Part shown: in pieces, positions 10,432 through 25,608 of the stretch
How the letters are laid out: each line of letters starts with the position of its first letter
Position numbering within the stretch: the stretch's first letter is position 1
The notes under the pieces: model-generated
Database searches by the model: none
The model's input: the letters and a program-made list of their open reading frames with translations, nothing else
What the model was told of the DNA's origin: nothing
Made by a program: the position numbers and the translations under genes
DNA from: a virus
Virus record (IMG/VR): IMGVR_UViG_3300046005_001432
Location: 1 to 25,608 of that record
DNA length: 25,608 nt
Reading direction: 5' to 3' (one strand)

Positions 10432-11592
10432 ATGCTTTTCGAAGAAGCTGATGGAAATGTGAACACTCCTATGTGCTCTAAGTGCAAAGGATATTCGAAT
10501 TCCAATTATTCTTATATGGAAATGATAGGAAGGGGAGACAAGATTCTTTTTGTCACGGATGATTTCAATAAGAATCCTAAAGAGTCGTGGCTGGCTCCTA
10601 GAATGGAAAGGTTCATTAAAGACATCTGCGAGGATTTGAAACTTAACTACAACACTGACTGCGGAGTGGTTCCAGCCTATAAATGCGACGGAAACGACAA
10701 AGGAGCCTCGTTTTGCCACTTTCCCGTGTGTAATATCATCCAATCCGCAAATGCCCGTAGCGTCGTTCTATTAGGCAAAAACGCCCTAGTCTCCGTTGTT
10801 GGAAGCAAGTGGAAACGGGACATAGGGGAACTTGACAAGTGGATTGGTTTCACAATACCTATTTATGATCGATGGATCATTCCGACATATAATCCATTTC
10901 AAGAGTATGGCAATGAATTTGTAATAGACAATCATGTTCCCACTAAAATTCTATTTGAGAACATCACTAAAGCGAATGATTATAGAAACCACCCCATAAC
11001 AAGTGTGCAAAAAACTGCCAAAATCAAAATCTTGTCGGAAAATGAATCCGTCATTCTTTTGGAGTCCATGAAGGAGGATTGTCCCCTTTCAGCTTTCGAC
11101 TATGAGACTACTGGGCTACGTCCATATAATAAAGGACACTCCATAGAGACTGTCAGCGTGGCATTCAAAAGAAAAGATGTTCTAACATCATATGCGTTCA
11201 CTGTGTCCGATAAGAATTCCCAAGCAATTAAAGATTACTTGCAGAATGGAAATCTCAAGAAGATAGCCTCCAATATGAAGTTTGAGGACACATGGAGCAA
11301 AGTCATCTTCGGAGTAGGTGTGAAAGGGTGGGTTTTCGACACCATGCTCGCCCAACACATCATTGATTGCAGAGAGGGGATATGCTCTTTGAAGTTTCAA
11401 GCGTTCGTGAGATATGGTTTTGAGGACTATGAGGCGAAAGTGAAGCCTTTTCTCATAGCGAAAGATGCTTCCTCGTTAAACAATATCAAAAACTGTTCTT
11501 ATCCGCTGCTGTTGAAATATAATGCCATTGACTCATACTTGGAATATGTGTTGGCGGAGGATATGATGAATGAACTGGGGGTGGTCATATGA
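10432..11592 (+). CDS. DNA polymerase N-terminal part: UDG-like domain plus 3'-5' exonuclease
   Basis: It would form the proofreading half of the replicative polymerase. ATG 10432 follows AAGGTGGAG. An earlier ATG at 10387 is unlikely because its first codons form the terminator stem. In the 386-residue product, residues 10-165 look like a uracil-DNA-glycosylase-fold domain: CSKC (15-18), Cys85 and Cys100 spaced like the [4Fe-4S] ligands of family 4 UDGs, SVVLLGKNAL, and IIPTYNPFQ near the HPS-loop position. Residues 200-386 are a DEDDy-type exonuclease: FDYETTGL with Asp223/Glu225, NMKFED with Asp286, and YNAID with Tyr363/Asp367. SPO1-like polymerases carry the same domains joined to the palm in one chain. 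Here the palm is a separate gene with an ATGA overlap at 11589. Confidence 0.85.
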   Translation: MLFEEADGNVNTPMCSKCKGYSNSNYSYMEMIGRGDKILFVTDDFNKNPKESWLAPRMERFIKDICEDLKLNYNTDCGVVPAYKCDGNDKGASFCHFPVCNIIQSANARSVVLLGKNALVSVVGSKWKRDIGELDKWIGFTIPIYDRWIIPTYNPFQEYGNEFVIDNHVPTKILFENITKANDYRNHPITSVQKTAKIKILSENESVILLESMKEDCPLSAFDYETTGLRPYNKGHSIETVSVAFKRKDVLTSYAFTVSDKNSQAIKDYLQNGNLKKIASNMKFEDTWSKVIFGVGVKGWVFDTMLAQHIIDCREGICSLKFQAFVRYGFEDYEAKVKPFLIAKDASSLNNIKNCSYPLLLKYNAIDSYLEYVLAEDMMNELGVVI

Positions 11593-14126
11593 ATCAGTTG
11601 GATGCCTATAATCTATTTCATGAGGGGACTAAGGCTCTAGGAATAGCGGAGCGCAATGGCATGAGGGTCGATGTGAGGCTTCTTGATGCCACGATAGACA
11701 AGGAGGGAGGACGATGTTCCGTTATATCAAGTGAGTTGGATGCCATGGTGGAGGGTAGACAATGGAAGGAGAAGTATGGTTCAAATTCCTCCTATCTATC
11801 TCCGCAGCAGCTCACAGTCATATTGAAAAATTATGGTTTGACCATTGAAAAAGCGGATAAAGCTGTTTTATCTAAAATAGAATCTCCATTTGTAAGGAAG
11901 ATTCTCGAACTCCGTAAAATATCCAAGATGATAGCCAGTCTGACAGGATTCAAGCGGGAAGTCACCAATGATGAAAGGATACACCCATCATTTCACCTTC
12001 ATGGAGTGTCCTCATACCGTTCCAGCAGTTCCAATCCAAACTTTCAAAACATAGCTATTCGTGATCCCGAGACTGCGGAACGCATTCGAAGTTTGTTCAT
12101 TCCCACAAGTGGATATAGGTTACTTGAGGTCGATTATTGTTTCACAGGAGACACACAAATTGAAACAACTGGTGGAAGGAAGACCCTCAAAGAAATAGTG
12201 GAAAAGCAAGATTTGTGTCATGTGTATGGATATGACAAGGATAAAGGAAGGGTGTGTGTATCTCGTATCATAAGAGCAGCTAAGACACAAACAAGCCAGC
12301 CTGTGTTTACTGTTACCTTAGACAATGGGGAAACTGCTAAAGCCACGGCTAACCATAGGTTCATGTTGAGAGATGGTTCTTATCGGGAGTTGCGGTCCCT
12401 TCGTCCTGGCGATTCCCTCATGCCATTTTATACCACCACACTGTCACAAACCAATATAAAAACTAAGTACAGATGGGTGTATTTGAATAATGGTGAAAAG
12501 ATGAAAGCCCATAATCTTGTGGCTTTGGATGTTCTTGGATACACTATCAAAGGTTCTTATAAAATTGTGCATCACAGGAATGGGAATGGGTGGGATAATG
12601 ATCCATCTAACTTAGTGGTGATGGACAGAAAAGAACACATGTCTATACATTCAAAACAAGGTTGGGAAAACACTAAAAATGGAGCAGAACACAAAAGACA
12701 GACTTATCAACGTTCGGCAGAGGGCAGAGCTGAACAAAGCATAAGAAGTAAAAGGATACATGATGAAACACCTGAGTGCATTAAAAGGGAGTGGTATAAA
12801 CACATCTCAGAAAGCCATAAGGGTCTTTATGAAGGTTCTAAAAACCCCATGTATGGAAAAAAACACAAAATTGAGACAGTGGAGAAGATAAGAGCTACTA
12901 AAAAAAGACAGAACATAAAGTCTTTTTTAGGAAGAACCCATTCTATGGAGACACGTTTACTTTTAAGTGCAAAAAACAAAGGGAAAAAACTAACGGAGGT
13001 AATCAAACGCAAAATATCTGCTTCTGGAAAGGGTAGAATATGCAAGGAGGAGACAAGGAAACTACTACGAGAGAGGGTGTTCACTGAGAGTACAAGGATG
13101 AAAATGGGGAAGGGCATTAAAGAAAGGTGGAAAAAAGCCAAGACACACTCATGCCCTATCTGTAAAAAGGAATATAGGTCGCTAAGTGGAATTCCCTCTA
13201 CCACACATTTACGTCATAAGCATGGTTTGACAACGGAAGAGTTCAAGGACACCTACAACCACAAGGTTGTTTCCGTTGATTTCTATGGTTATGAGGATGT
13301 TTACAATATCACAGTGGATAGGATTCATAATTATGCTTTGAAGGCAGGTGTCATTGTTGCTAATTGTGGAATCGAAGTCCGTGCGTCAACATTCTACAAT
13401 AAAGACCCTGTGCTTATAAATTACATTTTGGACAAGACTACTGATATGCACAAGGATATGGCTTCCGAGTGCTATATGCTGCCAAAGGATAAAGTGACGA
13501 AGGAGATTCGTTACTGCGCGAAGAACATGTTCGTGTTTCCGGCTTTCTATGGATCATACTACAAGCAGATCGCCCCTCATTTGTGGAATGCCATTGGAGA
13601 TATGAAACTAAAACTGTCCGATGGAACTGATTTGGCTTCCCATGTTGCGGCTAGAATAGGTGATCGAAATGATTTCATGGCCCACATACAAAAAGTGGAG
13701 AACGCTTTTTGGAATGATAGATTCAAAGTCTACACACAATGGAAAAAGGATTTCTACAGCAAATATTTGGAGAGGGGTTACTTCGACTCATTGACAGGAT
13801 TCCGCTACAAAGGAGAGTTCAAACGGAATCAAGTGCTGAATTATGCGATTCAAGGAACGGCATTCCACTGTCTTCTATGGAGTTTCATCGAACTCACGAA
13901 GGAATTCATCAAGAATAAGTGGAAATCAAAAGTGATAGGACAGATTCACGATAGTATCATAACTGAAATCCATGATAGCGAATTCGAGGCTTATAAGGTG
14001 TTGATCAAAGACATCATGACTAGACGTGTGGTTCAGGCGTTTCCATTCATCAATGTTCCATTGGAAGTGGAGATAGAAGCCGCAGGGGTGGACGAATCTT
14101 GGCACAAAAAGAAAGCTGTCAAGTGA
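11589..14126 (+). CDS. DNA polymerase A palm/fingers domain, interrupted by an intein
   Basis: This is the polymerising half of the split polymerase: 845 residues before splicing and 436 after removal of residues 184-592. Flanking sequence is clearly PolA. SSYRSSSSNPNFQNIAIR (141-158) is the 'RxSSxxPNxQN' region, and motif A is LLEVDY/CGIEVR (178-183 joined to 593-598) with catalytic Asp182. Motif B is RYCAKNMFVFPAFYG (641-655), with LNYAIQGTA (750-757 region) after it. Motif C is QIHDSI, with Asp788. Motif C has Ser where most PolA enzymes have Glu. The intein lies exactly in motif A, so the enzyme should be inactive until it splices. The start overlaps the exonuclease gene (ATGA), which suggests coupled translation of the two subunits. 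Confidence 0.92.
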   Translation: MNQLDAYNLFHEGTKALGIAERNGMRVDVRLLDATIDKEGGRCSVISSELDAMVEGRQWKEKYGSNSSYLSPQQLTVILKNYGLTIEKADKAVLSKIESPFVRKILELRKISKMIASLTGFKREVTNDERIHPSFHLHGVSSYRSSSSNPNFQNIAIRDPETAERIRSLFIPTSGYRLLEVDYCFTGDTQIETTGGRKTLKEIVEKQDLCHVYGYDKDKGRVCVSRIIRAAKTQTSQPVFTVTLDNGETAKATANHRFMLRDGSYRELRSLRPGDSLMPFYTTTLSQTNIKTKYRWVYLNNGEKMKAHNLVALDVLGYTIKGSYKIVHHRNGNGWDNDPSNLVVMDRKEHMSIHSKQGWENTKNGAEHKRQTYQRSAEGRAEQSIRSKRIHDETPECIKREWYKHISESHKGLYEGSKNPMYGKKHKIETVEKIRATKKRQNIKSFLGRTHSMETRLLLSAKNKGKKLTEVIKRKISASGKGRICKEETRKLLRERVFTESTRMKMGKGIKERWKKAKTHSCPICKKEYRSLSGIPSTTHLRHKHGLTTEEFKDTYNHKVVSVDFYGYEDVYNITVDRIHNYALKAGVIVANCGIEVRASTFYNKDPVLINYILDKTTDMHKDMASECYMLPKDKVTKEIRYCAKNMFVFPAFYGSYYKQIAPHLWNAIGDMKLKLSDGTDLASHVAARIGDRNDFMAHIQKVENAFWNDRFKVYTQWKKDFYSKYLERGYFDSLTGFRYKGEFKRNQVLNYAIQGTAFHCLLWSFIELTKEFIKNKWKSKVIGQIHDSIITEIHDSEFEAYKVLIKDIMTRRVVQAFPFINVPLEVEIEAAGVDESWHKKKAVK
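12138..13364 (+). mobile_element. Intein with HNH homing endonuclease in DNA polymerase motif A
   Basis: The 409-residue element (residues 184-592 of the polymerase frame) begins with Cys in CFTGDTQIETTGG (block A). It has TANH with Thr253 and His256 (block B) and ends VYNITVDRIHNYAL (block F) and GVIVAN, followed by Cys593. These are the self-splicing residues, except that the penultimate residue is Ala where His is usual. Inside lies an HNH nuclease (IVHHRNGNGWDNDPSNL, 326-342, His350), then repeated NUMOD3-like stretches (NPMYGKKH, FLGRTHSMET, SGKGRICKEET, about 418-505). A C2H2-like finger follows (CPIC 522-525, His540, His545). The NUMOD3 repeats probably contact DNA. Homing to intein-free polymerase genes is expected from family knowledge. 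Confidence 0.92.
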
Positions 14127-16995: not shown

Positions 16996-17289
16996 ATGTC
17001 TCTTAAAGTATTTCAAGTTCATGTTCACTACCACTACATTTGTCTAGCAGAGGACACTGAACAGGCTAAGGAGTTCTATAAAGAGGCTTCCCGTGATCTA
17101 GGAACATCTAATAAGGATTTTATCTTTTCCCCTGTGGAAAGCATTGAAGATGTTTCTAAGACATATTTAATGTCTGGATACATGCCTGAAGACTATATCT
17201 ATCACAGATTCCGTTCAGAGAATGTCAAACTAAAAGATTCCTTCTCATTTATCGAGAAGAAGAACAAAGAAGGAGATGTCAAATGTTAA
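16996..17289 (+). CDS. Hypothetical protein
   Basis: I chose ATG 16996 because AAAAAGGAT gives eight-base spacing. An upstream TTG at 16921 would place the hairpin inside the coding region. The 97-residue protein starts MSLKVFQVHVHYHYICLAED, a His-rich beta strand (HVHYHY). It continues with an amphipathic helix (TEQAKEFYKEASRDLG) and ends in a Lys-rich helix. It resembles a small alpha/beta protein; the His cluster could bind metal. It overlaps the following gene by seven bases. Function is unknown. Confidence 0.6.
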   Translation: MSLKVFQVHVHYHYICLAEDTEQAKEFYKEASRDLGTSNKDFIFSPVESIEDVSKTYLMSGYMPEDYIYHRFRSENVKLKDSFSFIEKKNKEGDVKC

Positions 17290-17522
17290 TTCCCTTTGAG
17301 CTTTTTGATGGGTCGATTGTTTGGTTGAAACCCACTAAGAAGACTATGGTGATCATGGTGTGCCTGTGTGATGGTTTATGGGAAACCCATTTGGATAATC
17401 AAGGAGATAGTATATATACTCTTTGCAAAGGAGAAAAGAAAACAAATGCTTTCAGAATGGCCCTAAGCGCAGTGGAAAAAATCAATATGTGCTTAGAATG
17501 CAAAGGAAATAAAAATGCTTGA
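17283..17522 (+). CDS. Small hypothetical protein
   Basis: The 79-residue product begins MLIPFELFDGSIVWLKPTKK, probably a short beta-barrel-like opening (strand-turn-strand), followed by VIMVCLCDGLWETHLDNQGD. The C-terminus has CLEC. AAGGAGATG lies before the start. It overlaps the previous gene and, by eight bases, the recombinase gene. No family is recognised. Confidence 0.6.
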   Translation: MLIPFELFDGSIVWLKPTKKTMVIMVCLCDGLWETHLDNQGDSIYTLCKGEKKTNAFRMALSAVEKINMCLECKGNKNA

Positions 17523-18522
17523 ACTATCCACTGGATCGACACTATTCAATTTGGCATTGTCCGACAATGCTTTGACAGGACTCAAAACGGGAAAGATGAT
17601 GAATCTTATCGGGGACTCATGCGCTGGAAAATCTTTTCTGGCTTTGACAATTCTCGCCAAGGCGTGTTACTCTAAGAAGTTTGACAAATACAAAAAATAC
17701 TATGATGATGTGGAGTCCGCATGTGAGTTCAACATGTTGGATTTGTTCGGTGAGAAAGCTGAAAAGGAAATAATCTCTCCTTATGAGGATTCCCCTTCCA
17801 GCGAAACTATTGAGCAGTTCTACTATAATATTGACACTTTGCTGGACAAAGGAGAGCCATTCATCTATGTCCTCGACTCTATGGATGCTCTTACCACCAA
17901 TAGTGAATCTGAATTGTTTGATGATAATAAAAAGGCTTTTGAGAAGGGAACACAAACGAAAGCCACTTATGGAGATGGCAAAGCGAAGCAGAATTCAGCA
18001 AATCTACGAAAGATCGTGGGACGTTTGAAGGAGACGGAATCAATACTGATTATCATTAGTCAGACAAGGGATAATATTGGTAATGCATATGTTCCCAAGA
18101 CAAGGGCGGGAGGAAAAGCCCTTAAATTCTATGCTAGCTGGGAAGTGTGGGTGTCCGTAGCGGAAAAACTTAAAATGAAAGTCAACGGCAAGGATAGAAT
18201 CATTGGTATCAATGCTCTATTGAAAGTGGCTAAGAACAAGGTTACTGGAAAGTATGTGGATGTTCAAGTTCCCATTTACTATTCCTGCGGGGTGGATGAT
18301 GTGGGTTCCATGATCGATTGGATGGTGGCGGAGGGTGGTTGGTCTAGTAAGACTGGTTGGATTGAATCGCCATTTGGAAAACATCGAATGGACGCTCTTG
18401 TCGAACACATCATAGAGACTAAAAAGGTGAAGGAATTGAAACTTTTAGTGCAGGAGGCTTGGACGGCCATTTGGGAAAAATGTCGTGTGAATAGGAAAAG
18501 TTCTTTGGAAGAGATCGAATAA
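17515..18522 (+). CDS. RecA/UvsX-type recombinase
   Basis: It would form helical filaments on ssDNA and promote strand exchange for recombination-dependent replication and repair. AAAGGAA precedes the ATG. The 335-residue protein has Walker A GDSCAGKS (33-40), Walker B IYVLDSMDAL (117-126) and the L2/sensor region IIISQTRDNIG (179-189) followed by RAGGKALKFYAS, all typical of the RecA/UvsX fold. The start is close to the core, so the N-terminal RecA oligomerisation helix is short. The neighbours (SSB, UvsY-like, PD-(D/E)XK nuclease, Mre11-Rad50) make UvsX-like function likely. Assignment to the recombinase rather than the DnaB family rests on the S-Q-x-R-x-N-I-G motif. Confidence 0.88.
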   Translation: MLELSTGSTLFNLALSDNALTGLKTGKMMNLIGDSCAGKSFLALTILAKACYSKKFDKYKKYYDDVESACEFNMLDLFGEKAEKEIISPYEDSPSSETIEQFYYNIDTLLDKGEPFIYVLDSMDALTTNSESELFDDNKKAFEKGTQTKATYGDGKAKQNSANLRKIVGRLKETESILIIISQTRDNIGNAYVPKTRAGGKALKFYASWEVWVSVAEKLKMKVNGKDRIIGINALLKVAKNKVTGKYVDVQVPIYYSCGVDDVGSMIDWMVAEGGWSSKTGWIESPFGKHRMDALVEHIIETKKVKELKLLVQEAWTAIWEKCRVNRKSSLEEIE

Positions 18523-18541
18523 AAACTAAAAAGGTGAATCC

Positions 18542-18781
18542 ATGCAGACGCTTGTAAGGAACAATCTACTTGAAATTTCAGTTACGAAGACAGTTCAGGA
18601 CAATCAATTCGAACCATTCTCTTTTTCCTTTAAGCAGACGTTGAACATTGAGGGTTTGACAGATCAGGAGACAGTAATCGGAATGGCTTCCGTAATTGAG
18701 GATTCCTTAGAGAGTCTGTCGGACAAAGTATTCCGTCAGAGATTGGAAAAGTCCGATAAATGGTATGGAAGAACAGAATAA
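18542..18781 (+). CDS. Small hypothetical protein
   Basis: AAAAAGGTG lies before the ATG. The 79-residue protein starts with beta-like MQTLVRNNLLEISVTKTVQD, then PFSFSFKQTLNIEG, and ends with a helix (MASVIEDSLESLSDKVFRQR). It lies between the recombinase and the nuclease genes. The beta sheet plus helix pattern gives no family match. Function is unknown. Confidence 0.6.
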   Translation: MQTLVRNNLLEISVTKTVQDNQFEPFSFSFKQTLNIEGLTDQETVIGMASVIEDSLESLSDKVFRQRLEKSDKWYGRTE

Positions 18782-18793
18782 TAGGATACTACA

Positions 18794-19018
18794 ATGAACA
18801 ATTCCATCTATATTAAATACTGTGACAGAGGGGTGTGGATCAATAGAAGATTGACTTTCATCTCTCTCGCCGTCAAAGCCTCATTTGAGAAATTCCTTCG
18901 AGAGTGTGAAGTCATCGAACTTAAAAACGGAGGAAGGGGAATGCCTGATTCCGGAGTATTCAACACAATGGTTGTTTGTGACACCTATGATATCCCAAAG
19001 GAGGATTCCAATGGCTAA
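18794..19018 (+). CDS. Small hypothetical protein
   Basis: The 74-residue frame has AGGAT upstream of its ATG and overlaps the next gene by eight bases. It begins MNNSIYIKYCDRGVWINRRL and has a hydrophobic helix (TFISLAVKASFEKFL) and an acidic loop. Its last codons carry the ribosome site (AAAGGAGG) of the following gene, so translation of the two may be coupled. No family is recognised. Confidence 0.6.
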   Translation: MNNSIYIKYCDRGVWINRRLTFISLAVKASFEKFLRECEVIELKNGGRGMPDSGVFNTMVVCDTYDIPKEDSNG

Positions 19019-19574
19019 GGGAGCTTCATTCGAAAGGGATTTCTCCAAGAAGCTCTCTCTTTGGTGGACGCATGATGAAAGAGATGATGTGTTTTGGCGC
19101 AGTCAGGCTAGCGGAGGAAGAGCCACCATAAGGAAACGTTCCAATAAGACGTTGGATGGACAGGAAGGAGATATCTGCGCCACTGATCCTATTGGAAAGC
19201 CTCTTTTAGATAGGTACACCATAGAATTGAAGTGTGGATATGGCCCTTGGTCTTGTTTGGATTACATGGAGACAACACAAAAAGATTCCGTGTTTATGCG
19301 ATTTGTCAAACAAGCCAAGGAACAAGCCAAGCGGGATTGGATGCTTGTTTACAAAAAGGATAGACATACACCAATGATCTGTGTGGATAGGATGACATAT
19401 ATCTCTTGGTTGTCCTATTTCTTTGAGGTGGAGATTCCACACGCATCGCTTTACCACATGTCTATTGGCAATGTCACTGTTTTTCCTCTTTGGTATCTGT
19501 TCAACACAGATTCGGAAGCATTCCGTCACTTTCTTAAAATGGATGAAAGGTTTTTGAAATGTCAACATCACTAG
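19011..19574 (+). CDS. PD-(D/E)XK endonuclease, putative Holliday-junction or recombination nuclease
   Basis: I chose ATG 19011 because AAAGGAGG stands six bases upstream; a frame that starts at 18885 has no comparable site. The 187-residue protein begins MAKGASFERDFSKKLSLWWT, with Glu8 in the first helix. It then has VFWRSQASGGRAT, QEGDICATDPIGKPL with Asp54, and YTIELKCGYG with Glu72 and Lys74. That is the metal-ion site of the PD-(D/E)XK superfamily. A helix with KQAKEQAKRD follows in the place where many resolvases have their Gln motif. Cleavage of branched or replication-intermediate DNA is a likely role from the neighbours; a specific resolvase family is not provable by eye. It overlaps the next gene. 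Confidence 0.75.
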   Translation: MAKGASFERDFSKKLSLWWTHDERDDVFWRSQASGGRATIRKRSNKTLDGQEGDICATDPIGKPLLDRYTIELKCGYGPWSCLDYMETTQKDSVFMRFVKQAKEQAKRDWMLVYKKDRHTPMICVDRMTYISWLSYFFEVEIPHASLYHMSIGNVTVFPLWYLFNTDSEAFRHFLKMDERFLKCQHH

Positions 19575-19915
19575 AGCAGACCATTGAATATTCAAAGAAG
19601 CTACATTCCGATGCCATGTATAATAGAAAGGTTTTTGAGGAAAGGGTGGTTCTCATTCTTAATTCCATTGAAACCATGTTGTTTGAAAAGAATAGACTAT
19701 ATGGCAATTCCGCTTTGGAGCCACTACGAATTTTTTCCAAAGCGGATGCCAAAGAGCAGATAAAGGTACGAATAGATGATAAATTATCCCGTATAGCGAA
19801 GGGAACTAATGACAATGAGGATGCTGTGATGGATTTGATTGGTTATCTAATTCTTCTTAAATTGTCTGATTACTATCAGAATAATAATGTGAAAACACTA
19901 ACACAAGATGCTTAG
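19559..19915 (+). CDS. Nmad1/MazG-like nucleotide-associated protein
   Basis: The 118-residue protein is all helical, with a conserved-looking segment LFEKNRLYGNSALEPLRIFS and later KVRIDDKLSRIAKG and DNEDAVMDLIGYLIL. K-x-x-x-YGN, R-x-DDK-x-x-R and the acidic EDAVMDLIGY end are typical of phage proteins linked to nucleotide modification (Nmad1, DUF1599) that share the all-alpha MazG-type fold. Such proteins may hydrolyse or bind modified nucleotides. No experimental function is known to me for this form. The gene starts 16 bases before the end of the nuclease gene. Confidence 0.6.
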   Translation: MSTSLEQTIEYSKKLHSDAMYNRKVFEERVVLILNSIETMLFEKNRLYGNSALEPLRIFSKADAKEQIKVRIDDKLSRIAKGTNDNEDAVMDLIGYLILLKLSDYYQNNNVKTLTQDA

Positions 19916-20101
19916 AGATATTTATGGGCTGTAGTGTTATTTTTAGTGGGTGCTCCGTCAAACAAAGCGATGGAGTTATTGTTCCAGTCAATCCAAATCC
20001 ATGCAATTTCACTATTAAATGGATGAGAATCAATGTTGATTTCCGGGAACCAATGAAACAAAGTTTTTGTTAAAATTACAAAGTATATAAAAGGGTTGGT
20101 T
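19916..20101. other. Intergenic gap with weak candidate small genes
   Basis: This 186-base gap interrupts an otherwise packed operon. A plus-strand frame 19924-20073 (49 codons, MGCSVIFSGCSVK...) and a minus-strand frame 20115-19912 (67 codons) both stay open, but neither has a proper ribosome site. AAGGG just before 20102 serves the next gene. No consensus promoter was found. The gap may be a decayed gene or an mRNA leader. Confidence 0.35.
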
Positions 20102-21124
20102 ATGTTAAAAACCATACGACTAAAAAACTTTCAATGTCATAAAAATCTGTGTCTTGAATTAGATAGAGGGGTCAATACGATCATAGGCTCCTCCGATTCA
20201 GGGAAATCCGCCGTCATTAGAGCATTGAACTGGGTGGTGTTCAATCGTCCCGGCGGGGATGCTATGATCAAGCACAATACGGATGAATGCAAAGTAGGGC
20301 TTTTCTTCGATGAGGGAAAGGTAGTCAAGACCAAAGGAACGAAAACCAACAAGTACACAGTCAATGATGTTGAACTTTCCGCAGTAGGGAGAAATGTTCC
20401 TGATGAGGTCTCCCTAATTTGTAATTTGGATGAGGGAAATTTTCAAGGACAGTTCGATGCTCCTTTCCTTTTGAATGAGTCTCCCGGGGCTGTGGCCAAA
20501 CGAATCAACAAAATAGCTAACATCGATCTGATAGATACTATGATCTCCTCTATCAGTTCGGAAAGGAGGGTAATCAATGATAGACTACAATCTAATACCG
20601 ATGGACAACGAGACATTTCCCGAATACTACAGGCGCATGAAGGCGTGGAGAAGTTTGACGAGGAGGTTGGAACTCTTAATGTTCTTTCTAATACCCTATC
20701 TGAAAATGAGAAGACGTATAAGGAGCTTCTCAACATACATAGGAAAAGCTCTTCAAAGAAGATAGTGGATAGTGTCCGTTCCATGTTGACTAAAACAACT
20801 GGAATGAGGGCCTCTACGGACGATTTGATCAAAGAGCTAGACGAGACACGGGAATTGATTTCCTCCGTCTCCACGGCGATTAAAACGGCTTGGAAAGTCA
20901 AGCAGTACTTTCCACTGAAAACCGTAAAGGAATCCTATGGTGAAATGAAGGATTTAATAAGTCAACACACATTGAAAAAGGATTTCATTGATTTTTTGCG
21001 AACATCTATTGAAAAGAAAGGTGCTTGTGCTAAGTTATTGTTAAATATTAAAAATGAAATTGAAACGCTTAGGAGTGAAACTTCTTTTGAAGTGTGTCCT
21101 TTGTGTGGAAAAGAGGTTCAATGA
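20102..21124 (+). CDS. Rad50/SbcC N-terminal half (ATPase lobe with coiled coil and hook)
   Basis: Rad50-type ATPases tether DNA ends and regulate the Mre11 nuclease. AAGGG lies six bases before ATG 20102, better than a TTG six bases earlier. The 340-residue product starts MLKTIRLKNFQCHKNLCLEL and has Walker A GSSDSGKS (29-36), QFDAPFLLNESPGAVAKRI in the Q-loop area, and a coiled coil of about 140-320. It ends almost directly after a zinc-hook motif CPLC (332-335). In SbcC, Rad50 and T4 gp46 the chain continues through a second coil to the Walker B lobe. Here that lobe is encoded at 22149-22781. An ATGA overlap joins this gene to the nuclease gene. Confidence 0.92.
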   Translation: MLKTIRLKNFQCHKNLCLELDRGVNTIIGSSDSGKSAVIRALNWVVFNRPGGDAMIKHNTDECKVGLFFDEGKVVKTKGTKTNKYTVNDVELSAVGRNVPDEVSLICNLDEGNFQGQFDAPFLLNESPGAVAKRINKIANIDLIDTMISSISSERRVINDRLQSNTDGQRDISRILQAHEGVEKFDEEVGTLNVLSNTLSENEKTYKELLNIHRKSSSKKIVDSVRSMLTKTTGMRASTDDLIKELDETRELISSVSTAIKTAWKVKQYFPLKTVKESYGEMKDLISQHTLKKDFIDFLRTSIEKKGACAKLLLNIKNEIETLRSETSFEVCPLCGKEVQ

Positions 21125-21945
21125 AATTACTGCTTTGCGCCGATCTTCATTTAAGGGACACTACTCCCGCTTGTAGAAAAGACAATTACATCAAAACGAT
21201 GGAAAACAAGTTGGATCAGATGGTCAACATCCCACATGATCATATAATCTGTGCTGGGGATGTTTTTCACAAGTGGAACACCTCCGTATCCACTATTCAA
21301 CGATTCCTTCGCATTCCCCACATAATTTCCATCTTTGGGAATCACGATCTACGATTCGATGATATGATGTCCAGTTCCGATACTGGTCTTGGTTTGATCA
21401 TGGAAATGAACACTAAGTTGAAGGAATATACGATCTTTCCAAACAGGAAGGCGTCTATAATCTTAGATGAAGTAAAAATACACATAGAACATGTAATGAT
21501 ATGGCATAAAGAACCTCCATATCCAGGATGCACAGCCTCCAATGCGGAAGATTATATGGACAAGATAGATGCTGATATCATTGTCACTGGGGATAATCAT
21601 AAGACATTTGTAGTGGAAAGAAATGGTAAGATTCTTTTTAATCCCGGCTCCCTATTAAGAAGCACAAGCATTCAAAAGGAGCACAAACCCTGTGTGTTCG
21701 TCTATGACACTAAAAGGAAGAGTTACGAAGTTCACTATCTTAAAATCGAGGAGGATGTATTTTTAGAGGACAAGACATATGAATTTCTTTTCTCCTCCTT
21801 CGTCAATAGCATCAATTCCGTAGAGTGGGATGTGGAGATAGATTTCGAAAACAATCTATTGATGCTCATTGGAATGGACAATGTGAAAAAGAGTGTGGCG
21901 GATAAGATTCGTAGTATGCTTAAACAGGCGAAAGAGGGGAAGTGA
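21121..21945 (+). CDS. Mre11/SbcD-type nuclease (gp47-like)
   Basis: This metallophosphoesterase would trim or cut DNA ends together with the Rad50-like subunit. ATG 21121 (MKLLLCADLHLRD) overlaps the upstream stop, with GAGGT before it. The 274-residue product shows the phosphodiesterase motifs in order: ADLH (Asp8, His10), AGDVFH (Asp47), FGNHD (Asn74, His75), His129 in MIWHKE, and GDNH (157-160), then FNPGSL (173-178). Its capping region is short and it ends in a helical tail (MLKQAKEGK) that could bind the Rad50 coil. The gene lies between the N- and C-terminal pieces of Rad50, which is unusual. Confidence 0.92.
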   Translation: MKLLLCADLHLRDTTPACRKDNYIKTMENKLDQMVNIPHDHIICAGDVFHKWNTSVSTIQRFLRIPHIISIFGNHDLRFDDMMSSSDTGLGLIMEMNTKLKEYTIFPNRKASIILDEVKIHIEHVMIWHKEPPYPGCTASNAEDYMDKIDADIIVTGDNHKTFVVERNGKILFNPGSLLRSTSIQKEHKPCVFVYDTKRKSYEVHYLKIEEDVFLEDKTYEFLFSSFVNSINSVEWDVEIDFENNLLMLIGMDNVKKSVADKIRSMLKQAKEGK

Positions 21946-21946
21946 G

Positions 21947-22219
21947 ATGGAACAGAAACTTGTTGAAAAGTATATGAAGATGAAGAATAGATTGGATGTC
22001 TTGGAACGGGAGCAGTCCAAGAAGGAAATTGAAATGGAGATGCTCAAGGATATGTTATTGAAGCAGTATGATATTAGAATAAATGAATTGGAGACTGTGC
22101 TTTTCGAAAAAGAAAAAGAGTTGAAAGAATTAGAGGAGCGGATTGAAAATGGAATCAACAGCATTGAAAAGCAGGTCGGAAGCATTGAGGAAGAGGTGCG
22201 GAAGATTGGTGTCCAATAA
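21947..22219 (+). CDS. Coiled-coil protein, probably the second arm of the split Rad50/SbcC
   Basis: I chose ATG 21947 with GAGGGG upstream; an earlier in-frame ATG lies deep in the nuclease gene. The 90-residue product is a continuous coiled coil (MEQKLVEKYMKMKNRLDVLE, then LKQYDIRINELETVLFEKEK and ELKELEERIENGINSIEKQ). It has no hook or ATPase motif. It lies between the Mre11 gene and the Rad50 C-lobe, and overlaps the latter in the +1 frame. In intact SbcC the descending coil would be expected exactly at this point. It may therefore be the missing arm, made separately or joined by frameshift, though an independent role cannot be excluded. Confidence 0.65.
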   Translation: MEQKLVEKYMKMKNRLDVLEREQSKKEIEMEMLKDMLLKQYDIRINELETVLFEKEKELKELEERIENGINSIEKQVGSIEEEVRKIGVQ

Positions 22220-22781
22220 GGAACACTATGAGACGGAGCTTGATAGACTGATTCAGTATGGAATCAAATTGAATCAGGAAAAAGAGGATAACATAAATTC
22301 ATTGGATTTGGTGAGGCTCACAGCGCAGAAGACACAGTTTGTTTTAGAGAACAGCATCAAAGCGGTGTCCAATTCCGCATTGAAATGCGTTTTTGGTGAT
22401 AAGTACGAATTAGGAATGGATTTCAACCTCAAAAGGAATTCCAATGAGATTGATATCTATCTTTTGGAGAAGGGAACTAATAACAGAGTCAAACCTACGG
22501 ATGCTTGCGGAGGGGGTGTAATCGATCTATTGTCCATGTCTCTTAGAATCACTATGTGGACGCTAAAACGACCAAGGACGCGTCCGCTGCTGATTCTTGA
22601 TGAGCCTTTCAAATTTCTTTCTAGGGATTTGAAGCCTTTAGCCGCTGAAATGATTAAAAATCTATCGGAGTCCCTTAAAATACAAATGTTGATCGTCTCC
22701 CATGAGAAGGATATCATCGAGTGTTCCGATAAAGTGTTCGACTTAACTCAAAATAAAAAAGGTGCTCCAAATGATAATTGA
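22149..22781 (+). CDS. Rad50/SbcC C-terminal half (signature and Walker B lobe)
   Basis: This is the second half of the split ATPase. The 210-residue frame from ATG 22149 has GAGGAG ten bases upstream. An equally attractive start is TTG/GTG at 22206/22209 after AAGAGGTG, which would reduce the overlap with the coiled-coil gene from 71 to about 14 bases. The protein has a short coil and a beta domain with EIDIYLLEKG. It then has the ABC signature ACGGGVIDLLSMSLRI (119-134), Walker B LLILDEPFKFLS (147-158) and an H-loop VSHEKDI (183-189). It must pair with the Walker A lobe from 20102 to bind ATP. It overlaps the next gene by 11 bases. Confidence 0.9.
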   Translation: MESTALKSRSEALRKRCGRLVSNKEHYETELDRLIQYGIKLNQEKEDNINSLDLVRLTAQKTQFVLENSIKAVSNSALKCVFGDKYELGMDFNLKRNSNEIDIYLLEKGTNNRVKPTDACGGGVIDLLSMSLRITMWTLKRPRTRPLLILDEPFKFLSRDLKPLAAEMIKNLSESLKIQMLIVSHEKDIIECSDKVFDLTQNKKGAPNDN

Positions 22782-23319
22782 ACAACCACGAATCACTGTT
22801 CTCGCTAGGGGAGTGTATCCGGATTTGATCAAGGAATATGGGGAGAATAAGTTTTCCCGTATTGTTAAAAATAAAACTATCTTGGACGTGTGTGATGTCA
22901 GCGTCGATTTATTAGGTCTTCCAAAGATTGTCAATGTGGAGCTTCTAGCGTTCGAATGCGGAGGTAGGGAGACTAGGGATGGAAGGGCTTGCTGCGTGTC
23001 CGACACAGCCGGAAACAAGGCATTTCCATTTAAGATAGCTAGGGATATCAACGGGATTCAAGGATACTTTTGTTTCTATGATTCCTGTCTATATGCGACT
23101 TGCGATCTAGCCCTTCGTAGGACGGACATTAAAATGTACAGGATTTCGTTGTATGGATGCACAGCGGAATTGGAAAGTCATACCGTTTGGGAGGGTAATC
23201 TGCGAGAGAGGTGTCTTGAGGACAATTATGTTCCTTTGGTCAATGCCGTAAGGCAAAAAGCACAGACTCTGTACTGCACGAAACTGCACTACAGTCTCAA
23301 TAAAGGAATCAAAAAATGA
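22771..23319 (+). CDS. Cys-rich hypothetical protein
   Basis: ATG 22771 has AAAGGTG six bases upstream and overlaps the Rad50 C-lobe gene. The 182-residue protein begins MIIEQPRITVLARGVYPDLI and has at least nine cysteines, among them AFECGGRETRDGRACCVSD and GYFCFYDSCLYATCD. This suggests metal binding or disulphides. A RISLYGCTAEL strand and an Arg-rich C-terminus follow. No family was recognised. No primase was identified elsewhere in the window, but no primase motif is visible here either, so I make no such claim. Coupling to the repair genes suggests a role in the same process. Confidence 0.65.
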   Translation: MIIEQPRITVLARGVYPDLIKEYGENKFSRIVKNKTILDVCDVSVDLLGLPKIVNVELLAFECGGRETRDGRACCVSDTAGNKAFPFKIARDINGIQGYFCFYDSCLYATCDLALRRTDIKMYRISLYGCTAELESHTVWEGNLRERCLEDNYVPLVNAVRQKAQTLYCTKLHYSLNKGIKK

Positions 23320-23711
23320 AGGATGAATTGGAAAGGGCATTGATTGACAACATAACATATTGGAATGAGGAGATGGGTTATAGGGCTTTGTGGAAAGCTA
23401 TGGAGTTTCTTCAATCTCCTCGTTCCAAGGATTCCTTCAAAGGAAAATATGAATCATTCAATATTCGAGACGATAGAAAGAAAAAAACCAAAGGCATGCT
23501 CTCATGTGCTGAACTGTGTGAGAAGTATAACACTCCTCCACATCGTTTGTCCTTCATTCTAAGAAAAAATAATTTGAAAGGACACATTCAAGGCAAGTAT
23601 CGGATGTTCGATAAAGAGACAGAGATGGAGATAGCTAAAATAATTCACACTATGGCGGAAAAGAAGAAGAACGTAAAGAGAAGAGCAATCAATACAAACC
23701 CAAAGTATTAA
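23316..23711 (+). CDS. Putative DNA-binding protein with helix-turn-helix
   Basis: The 131-residue product starts with a helical acidic segment (MKDELERALIDNITYWNEEM) and has a basic middle (DDRKKKTKG). At about 62-100 it contains LSCAELCEKYNTPPHRLSFI and LRKNNLKGHIQGKYRMFDKE, which reads as a helix-turn-helix with a wing. The C-terminus is Lys/Arg-rich (KKKNVKRRA). A regulator of late or structural genes is possible from its position near the end of the operon, but that is inference. ATGA coupling joins it to the preceding gene. Confidence 0.6.
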   Translation: MKDELERALIDNITYWNEEMGYRALWKAMEFLQSPRSKDSFKGKYESFNIRDDRKKKTKGMLSCAELCEKYNTPPHRLSFILRKNNLKGHIQGKYRMFDKETEMEIAKIIHTMAEKKKNVKRRAINTNPKY

Positions 23712-23714
23712 GCC

Positions 23715-24203
23715 ATGTTTACCCTCGACTCTACTATAATGACTTCCAAAGGAGGTATTCCAGCGAGTGATATCTCTTTGGACACGAGAATATATCTGGG
23801 AAGAGGGGATTTCCACAAACCAATCAAAATAAATAAAATAGATTTAACCACCTTTTTCATCGTGAGGTGTCATGGAGGCTATGAGATAAAAGTTTCGGAG
23901 GACACCCACTTTAAAAAAGAAAGACATTATAGACCACTAGTGTGGCTGCATCATGATGCTAGACTAGGAGTTTACGATGGTGTTCACAGCAGTCTCTATA
24001 GAAAACTATTGAATATAGAAGTCGTAGACACGAAAACCACATTCATCCAGTTGAAATTCAATTTCACGAGAGGAATAAATGTGATCGTAAACAATTTCTA
24101 TATTCAATTAAGTCCTCATCCGATTTACACGAAAGAGAAAAGTCTTGTTAGAAAATACACGACTAAAGACTTGAAAAAAATATTGAAAGAAACAGCTAGT
24201 TAG
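23715..24203 (+). CDS. Free-standing Hint-like (intein-like) protein
   Basis: The 162-residue product opens MFTLDSTIMTSKGGIPASDI, closely parallel to the polymerase intein opening CFTGDTQIETTGGRKTLKEI. The start methionine lies where the intein nucleophile Cys would be. It continues VRCHGGYEIKVSEDTHFK, like the strand and the T-x-x-H region of block B, and VWLHHDARLGV, like the 'aelkvGD' segment. It ends with FNFTRGINVIVNN and a basic tail. No block F/G splice site or endonuclease motif is clear, so self-splicing is unlikely. It could be a decayed intein remnant, a split-intein piece or a domesticated Hint domain. The ribosome site is weak and the start is close to the preceding stop. Confidence 0.6.
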   Translation: MFTLDSTIMTSKGGIPASDISLDTRIYLGRGDFHKPIKINKIDLTTFFIVRCHGGYEIKVSEDTHFKKERHYRPLVWLHHDARLGVYDGVHSSLYRKLLNIEVVDTKTTFIQLKFNFTRGINVIVNNFYIQLSPHPIYTKEKSLVRKYTTKDLKKILKETAS

Positions 24204-24565
24204 ACATTTGTCTTCCTATTCTTCGTCGTAGGAGTTTCATTATAAGCATCCCTTCTCCTTAGTCTCGCCGTCTCCGTTGCGATGTAATCTTGTGTGCCTT
24301 TGATTGCTGCCATATCAATTTTCATCTGTGAAATGGTGCCGCTCAAAGTTTTTATTGAATCGCTGGAAAGCGTTTGCTCTATCTTACAAATCCTTTGTTC
24401 ACAGTTAATTCGATGGTCTGCAAATTTTGTTTGCATGTCATCGAAACGCTTCATTATTCCGTCATACCAACGCTTCCCAAGATAACCAAGTGCAAAGACA
24501 ATCATGGCAGGAGTCGAGCCTCCTTTAAGAATCATCTCCAGTATCTCTATTTCATGCGTCGGCAT
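24200..24565 (-). CDS. Membrane-anchored coiled-coil protein, holin or lysis candidate
   Basis: The minus-strand ATG at 24565-24563 has GAGGAGGTG close upstream. The 121-residue protein has one likely membrane segment (GGSTPAMIVFALGYLGKRWY, about 16-35). It then has a coiled coil with CEQRICKIEQTL and MKIDMAAIKGTQDYIATETA, and a basic C-terminus. One membrane segment plus a coil is compatible with small holin-like or spanin-like phage proteins, but no family is certain. The gene follows the tail-fibre-like gene in transcription order, a usual place for lysis genes. Its stop codon overlaps that of the convergent gene ending at 24203. Confidence 0.6.
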   Translation of the reverse strand: MPTHEIEILEMILKGGSTPAMIVFALGYLGKRWYDGIMKRFDDMQTKFADHRINCEQRICKIEQTLSSDSIKTLSGTISQMKIDMAAIKGTQDYIATETARLRRRDAYNETPTTKNRKTNV

Positions 24566-24588: not shown

Positions 24589-24960
24589 TTACTCAGCGTG
24601 TCCGGCTGGAGGTGGCGCGTTCGGATCGACTGGGACTGGAAGCGGGTAATTCTTGGTCGGGTCTCTTTTGTATGCCTCGTGCAAATAGGCCGATTGAATC
24701 ATTCCAAACAGTTGAGCATAGCTTACTTTCGTTTCAGTCGGCTCCAGTGTTGATGGATCAAAAATTGGAAATTCCTCAGTCATATCTGGAGTAAAATTGA
24801 ATCCCGACAAATCTTTGTAAAAATCTGCATCATCCTGCGCGACGTTGGCATATTCGCGCTCAAGGCAATCCACCGTCCAACTCGCCATTGATTTGCCAGA
24901 GCGACGAATGCCGAAATAACGGGCTGTCATCTGCGGGATAGTGTTGTCTGAGTAGTTCAT
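24589..24960 (-). CDS. Hypothetical protein, tail-module position
   Basis: The minus-strand ATG at 24960 has AGAGGAAAACA upstream, a good ribosome site. The 123-residue protein begins MNYSDNTIPQMTARYFGIRR and is acidic in the middle (DDADFYKDLSGFNFTPDMTE). It ends with a Pro-rich stretch (NYPLPVPVDPNAPPPAGHAE). The gene directly follows the Kelch-repeat gene, so a tail-fibre assembly or virion role is possible. No family is recognised. Confidence 0.55.
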   Translation of the reverse strand: MNYSDNTIPQMTARYFGIRRSGKSMASWTVDCLEREYANVAQDDADFYKDLSGFNFTPDMTEEFPIFDPSTLEPTETKVSYAQLFGMIQSAYLHEAYKRDPTKNYPLPVPVDPNAPPPAGHAE

Positions 24961-24974
24961 TGTTTTCCTCTTTT

Positions 24975-25608
24975 TTATAATTTATTGAGTGTGCCGCCAA
25001 GTAGCAGCGGCGTGGGGAAATTAAGAGACGCATGGGATATGGCTCCATCGTATATCCGCGCCTGCGATGCGTAGAATGGCACGCAGAACACACGCCCGTC
25101 GGGCAGCAGGACGCCGCCAATGTATGCGTATGAGCCCGGCGCGGCACCAACGTCGGTGGAACCGCCTGACCCATCATATATCCTTGCCTGCGTTGCGTTG
25201 AATGGCACGCAGAACACACGCCCGTCGGGCAGCAGGACGCCGCCATAGTATGCGTATGCGCATGGCGCGGCACCCACGTCGGTGTAACCGCCTGCCGCAT
25301 CGTATATCCGCGCCTGCGTTGCGCTGTGTGGCACGCAGAACACACGCCCGTCGGGCAGCAGGACGCCGCCAACGTATGCGCCACCGCCCGGCGCGGCACC
25401 AACGTCGGTGAAACTGCCTGCCGCATCGTATATCCGCGCCTGCGTTGCGTTGTATGGCACGCAGAACACACGCCCGTCGGGCAGCAGGACGCCGCCAAAG
25501 TATGCGGCACCGCCCGGCGCGGCACCAACGTCGGTGAAACTGCCTGCCGCATCGTATATCCGCACCTGCGTTGCGCTGTGTGGCACGCAGAACACACGCC
25601 CGTCTTTC
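24975..25608 (-). CDS. Kelch-like repeat protein, probable tail fibre or receptor-binding protein (C-terminal part)
   Basis: The frame is open through the right edge, so the N-terminus is missing. A GTG at 25595 is just an internal codon (DGRVFCVP). Five repeats of 42 residues follow one another. Each has GGVLLPDGRVFCVP, then an x-x-A-T/S-Q-A/V-R-I-Y-D turn and a TDVGAAPG turn. 'LPDGRV' and the repeat length match Kelch/galactose-oxidase-type beta-propeller blades. The last blade is followed by ISHASLNFPTPLLLGGTLNK and stop. Propellers at phage tail tips bind sugars or proteins, so receptor binding is a reasonable inference. The DNA is markedly richer in G+C than the rest of the window. Confidence 0.75.
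   Translation of the reverse strand, partial: KDGRVFCVPHSATQVRIYDAAGSFTDVGAAPGGAAYFGGVLLPDGRVFCVPYNATQARIYDAAGSFTDVGAAPGGGAYVGGVLLPDGRVFCVPHSATQARIYDAAGGYTDVGAAPCAYAYYGGVLLPDGRVFCVPFNATQARIYDGSGGSTDVGAAPGSYAYIGGVLLPDGRVFCVPFYASQARIYDGAISHASLNFPTPLLLGGTLNKL
25035..25608. repeat. 126-bp tandem repeat, about 4.5 copies, coding
   Basis: The sequence CACGCAGAACACACGCCCGT recurs at 25080, 25206, 25332, 25458 and 25584, exactly 126 bp apart, equal to 42 codons. Copies are nearly identical in DNA over long stretches, with differences clustered in a few codons. The last copy is cut by the window edge, where the end (GTCTTTC) departs from the repeat (GTCGGGC). Confidence 0.95.

Follow-up and report, generated by a model that had tools for sequence, protein, structure and literature searches.

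Rad50 is ordinarily a long ATPase made as one chain, and its continuous coiled coil is thought to relay signals between head and hook. Phages also carry homologues of SbcC/SbcD, gp46/gp47 in T4 and D13/D12 in T5, which are recombination nucleases encoded beside the replication genes and whose ATPase is a single chain. Here we describe a locus in which the corresponding ATPase is encoded in three pieces. The DNA analysed, IMGVR_UViG_3300046005_001432, is a complete IMG/VR virus record of 25,608 bp (the window), and inspection of its open reading frames (ORFs) found four intact plus-strand genes that overlap or abut, which we call N, M, K and C. We propose that the four probably encode one Mre11-Rad50 (SbcCD-like) complex that processes and tethers DNA ends, with Rad50 present as three polypeptides. 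At the level of sequence, the split, the conservation of motifs, the linkage of the genes to one another and to recA, and a near-exclusion with SbcC are established; from these we infer assembly of the complex, a return-strand role for K, a zinc hook, nuclease activity and a biological role. The genes and their motifs are as follows.

20102-21124, + strand: N, Rad50-like Walker A lobe and coiled coil ending at the hook, 340 aa
20186-20209, + strand: Walker A GSSDSGKS, N residues 29-36; G29, G34 and K35 invariant in 97 N sequences
20450-20452, + strand: candidate Q-loop residue Q117 of N, invariant in 97 sequences
21095-21106, + strand: hook motif CPLC, N residues 332-335; C332, P333 and C335 at least 90% conserved (97 sequences)
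21121-21945, + strand: M, Mre11/SbcD-like nuclease, 274 aa; starts within the ATGA that holds the N stop
21947-22219, + strand: K, coiled-coil protein, 90 aa
22149-22781, + strand: C, coil base and signature/Walker B lobe, 210 aa; 71-bp out-of-frame overlap with K
22503-22520, + strand: ABC signature ACGGGV, C residues 119-124; G121, G122 and G123 in 81, 76 and 85 of 87 sequences
22587-22604, + strand: Walker B LLILDE, C residues 147-152; D151 and E152 invariant in 87 sequences

These gene boundaries, and the end of N five residues past CPLC, had been given in an original prediction made from the letters of the window, and inspection of the ORFs bore them out; the C-terminus of N reads CPLCGKEVQ. 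GA-rich stretches resembling Shine-Dalgarno sequences precede M (AGAGG), K (AGAGGGG) and C (AGAGGAG), N is preceded by AAGGG, and the overlap or abutment of genes in cassette loci suggests translational coupling.

N matches AAA_23 and Rad50 N-termini (Pfam, NCBIfam), and the phrog_16465 profile matches all 97 of the 97 members. In an AlphaFold model built on the 97-sequence alignment (pLDDT 87, pTM 0.51) the head is followed by coil helices at residues 141-178, 182-215, 219-269 and 272-326, with breaks between them, and then by the hook; the best solved match in Foldseek, Mre11-Rad50 3av0_B (E 2.9e-8), confirms a Rad50/SMC head and is uninformative on the folding of the coil. When N proteins of at least 280 aa were counted, chromosomal N fragments included, 206 of the 207 that bear a CxxC had it no more than 25 residues from the C-terminus, the remaining one having it at 28. 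The CPxC of N may well form a zinc hook. C matches SMC_N and Rad50 C-termini in the same databases, and phrog_15167 at 3.7e-20. The signature consensus of its family is xSGGG or RGGG: of the 87 viral sequences 37 retain the signature Ser, chromosomal members mostly have Arg in its place and the window has Cys; an H-switch is present in the window, and its His in 66 of the 87. M matches Metallophos/Mre11 in Pfam (Metallophos_2, 1.1e-15), and the motifs DxH, GD, GNHD or GQHD, H and GxxH are kept in 168 sequences, where GD, GxH, H and H are invariant and the first D-x-H is at least 98% conserved; in the last motif the first His is often Asp (GDNH), in the window as well. The residues kept in N, C and M are what a working ABC head and a working nuclease of the Mre11 type would be expected to have, and the activity of both is putative.

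K and N are each predicted to be helical when modelled alone with AlphaFold. In the AlphaFold2 model of K (pLDDT 91.5), helices 2-41 and 45-88 are separated by a break, and the family pattern is a helix, a conserved G, an FGCxSLEEA-type break and a second helix. The K of the window alone finds few relatives; the K profile built here scores the window ORF at 7e-15, and phrog_18563 represents K of one subgroup. A fold search with K gave zero matches. That K might be a fragment of a specific coil segment of Rad50 or of the archaea-specific SMC-related proteins (ASRP) was considered and rejected: its matches scatter along the coil and generic coiled coils are also hit, and homology to a specific segment is therefore not claimed.

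The split is widespread among viruses. A tblastn search with the C lobe of the window in 50,697 phage records returned only Bacillus phage vB_BboS-125 (two records) and Microbacterium phage Magritte, and about 158 further loci came from two scans of IMG/VR. With profiles built here and applied to viral contigs, 119 loci had both N and C; M was present in all 119 and K in 115. The parts of vB_BboS-125 are gp32, an N that ends GGICPLCEQTHKGGGC and then stops, gp34, a K of 78 aa, and gp35, a C of 211 aa. Its M gene is unannotated in GenBank and lies between gp36 and gp37 (L003 8893-9873; NC_048735.1 about 22423-23403); we also note an AP2-domain protein between N and K (L003 7053-7625), possibly a relic of a mobile endonuclease. 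RecA was found in 95 of 162 viral loci. The original prediction had asked whether the order with M between the Rad50 halves is conserved. The order N-M-K-C is indeed common, being found in 94 viral loci, but this nesting is only one layout, with N-K-C-M in 21 viral loci and M-N-K-C also occurring. It had also named close relatives with one intact Rad50 gene as the observation that would speak against a natural split; among the family relatives in the phages and chromosomes examined, no hook-bearing one-chain Rad50 was found. In a tree made by a quick method, with long branches and hence indicative only, the split family falls to one side of SbcC (Shimodaira-Hasegawa-like approximate likelihood ratio test 92) and the window lies within a viral clade of 68 rows (98).

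The cassette is also a chromosomal, recA-linked system beyond phages. A scan of GTDB genomes, for which the 97-sequence alignment was too diverse to be used, gave 13 loci, and the order M-N-K-C was seen in Lagierella, Mediannikoviicoccus, Miniphocaeibacter, Peptoniphilus, Soehngenia and metagenome-assembled genomes (MAGs) of Tissierellia. By inspection, the Lagierella and Peptoniphilus loci are flanked by housekeeping genes, pgsA and recA upstream and an rny-like gene or miaB-mutS-mutL downstream. A further 20 regions come mostly from Tissierellales, the order to which Peptoniphilus catoniae belongs; in them M, N, K and C overlap or adjoin one another and recA lies upstream in 19, usually by less than 60 bp; the cassette directly follows recA in nearly every Tissierellales operon inspected. 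Among 150 Tissierellales genomes, with four SbcC candidates scored in each, a stand-alone C lobe was found in 85 and an intact SbcC in 47, and only two genomes (G067 and G123) had both (Fisher p about 5e-20). No full-length SbcC was found in the Peptoniphilaceae genomes behind the chromosomal loci, and TIGR00618 (SbcC) gave zero matches at 1e-5 in 10 cassette-carrying phage records; in split genomes its matches were N-lobe-sized, SMC-sized or otherwise weak. Brevibacillus and Sutcliffiella have a phage-type N-K-C-M cassette together with normal SbcC frames (1228 and 1148 aa). Across a sample of the phylum, the C lobe was found in 66 of 398 genomes, a few of these within fusions or other proteins, and in the phylum of a Thiobacillus MAG in 1 of 249, the MAG itself. 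The split cassette accounts for the apparent absence of SbcC from many Tissierellales, human-associated Peptoniphilaceae included.

Natural fusions connect N, C and M as parts of one machine and show that K goes with the coil. At three loci in bacterial chromosomes a single protein of 684-700 aa combines M, N and C and lacks the coil, the hook and K, a minimal Mre11-Rad50 head in a single chain:

L264 2652-4754: M-N-C fusion
L265 3264-5318: M-N-C fusion
L266 3083-5170: M-N-C fusion

These had been suspected of being N-K-C fusions of 686-702 aa. At one viral locus (L103 3144-5267) N and M share an ORF of 707 aa and C is separate; this ORF is perhaps like the Bacillus phage 0305phi8-36 protein (PMC3175470). 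Other candidates were set aside: one of 562 aa looks to us like RecN, and C hits of 282 and 314 aa are stop-to-stop frames with K separate.

At first sight the out-of-frame overlap of K and C resembles a frameshift, and the locus might be taken for one Rad50 gene broken by frameshifts, by an assembly error or by an inserted Mre11 gene, an explanation to which we give practically no credence. A second contig, IMGVR_UViG_3300045131_001403, has the identical structure (window 17149-24499, 7,351 bp, 99.9%, seven mismatches, zero gaps), and because this gap-free match is to an independent contig the gene breaks are not assembly errors. Decay is refuted by the relatives: identical break points occur in more than 100 other loci at about 20-35% protein identity, far beyond chance, and are shared by bacterial chromosomes, and every ORF retains its motifs and a ribosome-binding-site-like stretch. 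The split of Rad50 at the hook, which the original prediction had suspected to be natural, is natural. Nor is a programmed frameshift joining K to C favoured, since the two genes merely abut in most relatives and the C of the window has its own ribosome-binding-site-like stretch. Another possibility is that the cassette serves anti-phage defence or competition between phages, with an SMC-like ATPase comparable to Lamassu LmuB, Gabija GajA or AriA. The PADLOC models of AriA, LmuB and GajA do match the ATPase head of N weakly, but mostly over the shared P-loop, and the operon lacks an effector gene; a full-length profile match and a cognate effector, which mark Lamassu- and Gabija-type systems, were not found for the cassette. 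In phages its neighbours are recA and genes of DNA replication, in chromosomes recA, pgsA, cinA, miaB, mutS and mutL, and we regard a defence role as very improbable.

The explanation that most needs weighing concerns K. It could be a separate coiled-coil accessory or regulator, with the coil of N folding back to form a whole antiparallel arm by itself and N, C and M making up the complex. The coil of N is made of four helices with breaks, in long N proteins the coil part of the profile matches twice, the length of K is independent of the N arm, and K has no Rad50-specific match. Against this, K is almost as constant in its occurrence as the other three parts (115 of 119 loci), immediately precedes C in most loci and is missing where coil and hook are missing (L264-L266), and the coil of the smallest N arms is just long enough to pair with K and C; we consider the accessory role unlikely, if worth keeping in mind. 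The geometry of the arm bears on the same question. From head to hook the N arm spans 146-368 residues over 149 loci, while K (median 81 aa) and the C extension (about 50 aa) are nearly constant, so N must partly fold on itself. The shortest N arms, of about 146 aa, come near to the combined length of K and the C base, about 131 aa. In most of nine N proteins with 298-308 aa a single continuous stretch is missing, at about residues 235-285 of P0001. The N arm would thus consist of a core of about 140 residues, close to K plus C, and a variable middle about 45 residues from the hook, opposite the break in K. The original prediction had taken every piece for a complete structural arm, and this was only partly right: the return strand has a break of its own, between K and C, its length is near constant against 146-368 residues for the N arm, and N has four broken helices.

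Several observations weigh against a three-polypeptide Rad50 with K as its return strand. The lengths of the N arm and K show no positive correlation (Spearman -0.28), the sequence of K resembles generic coiled coils, and no N-K or K-C fusion was found in the loci examined. In Magritte, N lacks a CxxC (L166 3989-5041, gp155), and N, K (L005 2220-2480) and C (L004 284-934) are widely separated in the genome record. A further such point is the limit of four candidates per genome in the search for SbcC, because of which 20 split genomes were rescored more deeply; no full-length SbcC was found in these 20.

On balance we favour the single complex, which might work as follows. N and C would fold together into an ABC head, and two heads would close around two ATP and drive a dimer of the M nuclease. 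The N coil would run from the head to the CPxC zinc hook at the C-terminal end of N, and K, starting just past the hook, together with the first helix of C would form the return strand of the coil core, with one nick at the hook and a second about 50 residues from the head, while the extra, variable middle of the N coil would fold on itself. In the recombination-dependent replication of phages the complex would work alongside RecA in processing or tethering DNA ends, and in Tissierellales the three-part complex would be the resident replacement for SbcCD. A bolder proposal, which we hold to be rather doubtful, is that the nicks are functional: K would be dissociable and the arm would open either at the hook or where K meets C, as a DNA gate or to allow hook arms to be swapped, the gated form would have replaced SbcCD in Tissierellales as a recA-coupled machine, and the missing re-fusions would reflect selection to stay split. 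Functional nicks would permit an entry or exit gate for DNA, or an exchange of hook arms, that is impossible for a one-chain Rad50. A Rad50 so widely cut at the hook and near the head means either that continuity of the chain is dispensable or that the cuts are purposeful, and the separate natural parts are ready material with which to study the communication of coil and hook with the nuclease. A likely function is also now available for abundant phage genes that have gone unannotated.

In the window the cassette comes after a replication module with a DnaB-like helicase, a sliding clamp, DNA polymerase A and a clamp loader, and about 1.6 kb downstream of recA:

17515-18522, + strand: phage RecA (Pfam RecA, 5.8e-23)

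Between RecA and the Rad50 cassette lies a PDDEXK endonuclease of phage type (18885-19574; PDDEXK_15, 1.1e-10). DNA polymerase A (11589-14126) contains an intein with a splicing domain (2e-18) and an HNH endonuclease (7e-9), which sits ahead of a motif-A-like GIEVRAS. An ORF of 162 aa at 23715-24203, without a match in Pfam, resembles in our reading a stand-alone Hint/intein-like domain. A minus-strand ORF at 24860-25597 has Kelch/beta-propeller-like repeats of about 40 aa (VFCVPHSATQARIYDAAG...GGVLLPDGR), with two overlapping repetitive frames at the end of the contig.

How the cassette relates to described systems can be summarized as follows. With the SbcCD/Mre11-Rad50 complexes of E. coli, archaea and eukaryotes it shares a Walker A/signature/Walker B head, a long coil, a CPxC hook and a linked Mre11 partner. 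In those complexes a single chain makes up Rad50, whereas in the window and in more than 100 relatives it is divided among three proteins, with one break at the hook and another within the return strand. Where the known complexes have the signature LSGGE, the cassette has xSGGG or RGGG, and Asp often takes the place of the first His in its last nuclease motif (GDNH). The T4 and T5 homologues of SbcCD are likewise phage complexes beside replication genes, but unlike the cassette they keep the ATPase in one chain. ASRP (coalescin, Sph) are single chains with a zinc hook, and the parts of the source consulted describe no stand-alone C-lobe or Mre11 unit of the kind found in the cassette (PMC9389158). 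N aligns with the N-terminal half of the ASRP profile (8-310 of 593 for P0001), and 87 of the 97 N members match that profile; P0001 scores 49 bits where the cut-off of NF045487 is 300 bits. Mre11/Rad50 fusion proteins such as Mimivirus R555 occur across viruses, plasmids and Firmicutes, and combine the same two activities with M joined to Rad50; in the sections consulted neither a three-way split nor K is described, and one P-loop segment of SbcC is noted as not observed in the fusion proteins from Anaerostipes and from Bacillus phage 0305phi8-36 (PMC3175470). A separate C gene might explain that absent segment. In PHROG, phrog_16465 ('exonuclease') corresponds to N and phrog_15167 ('ATPase') to C, and gp32, gp34 and gp35 of vB_BboS-125 are annotated relatives; the families of N, C and K are listed separately there, and no statement uniting them as a split Rad50 was found. 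Nor was a split SbcC or Rad50 described in the open literature searched (subscription papers and preprints were outside its scope). The cassette is thus apparently a previously undescribed, conserved three-polypeptide Rad50 of the Mre11-Rad50 kind and, judged by its sequences, should work as Mre11-Rad50 does, minus the single chain.

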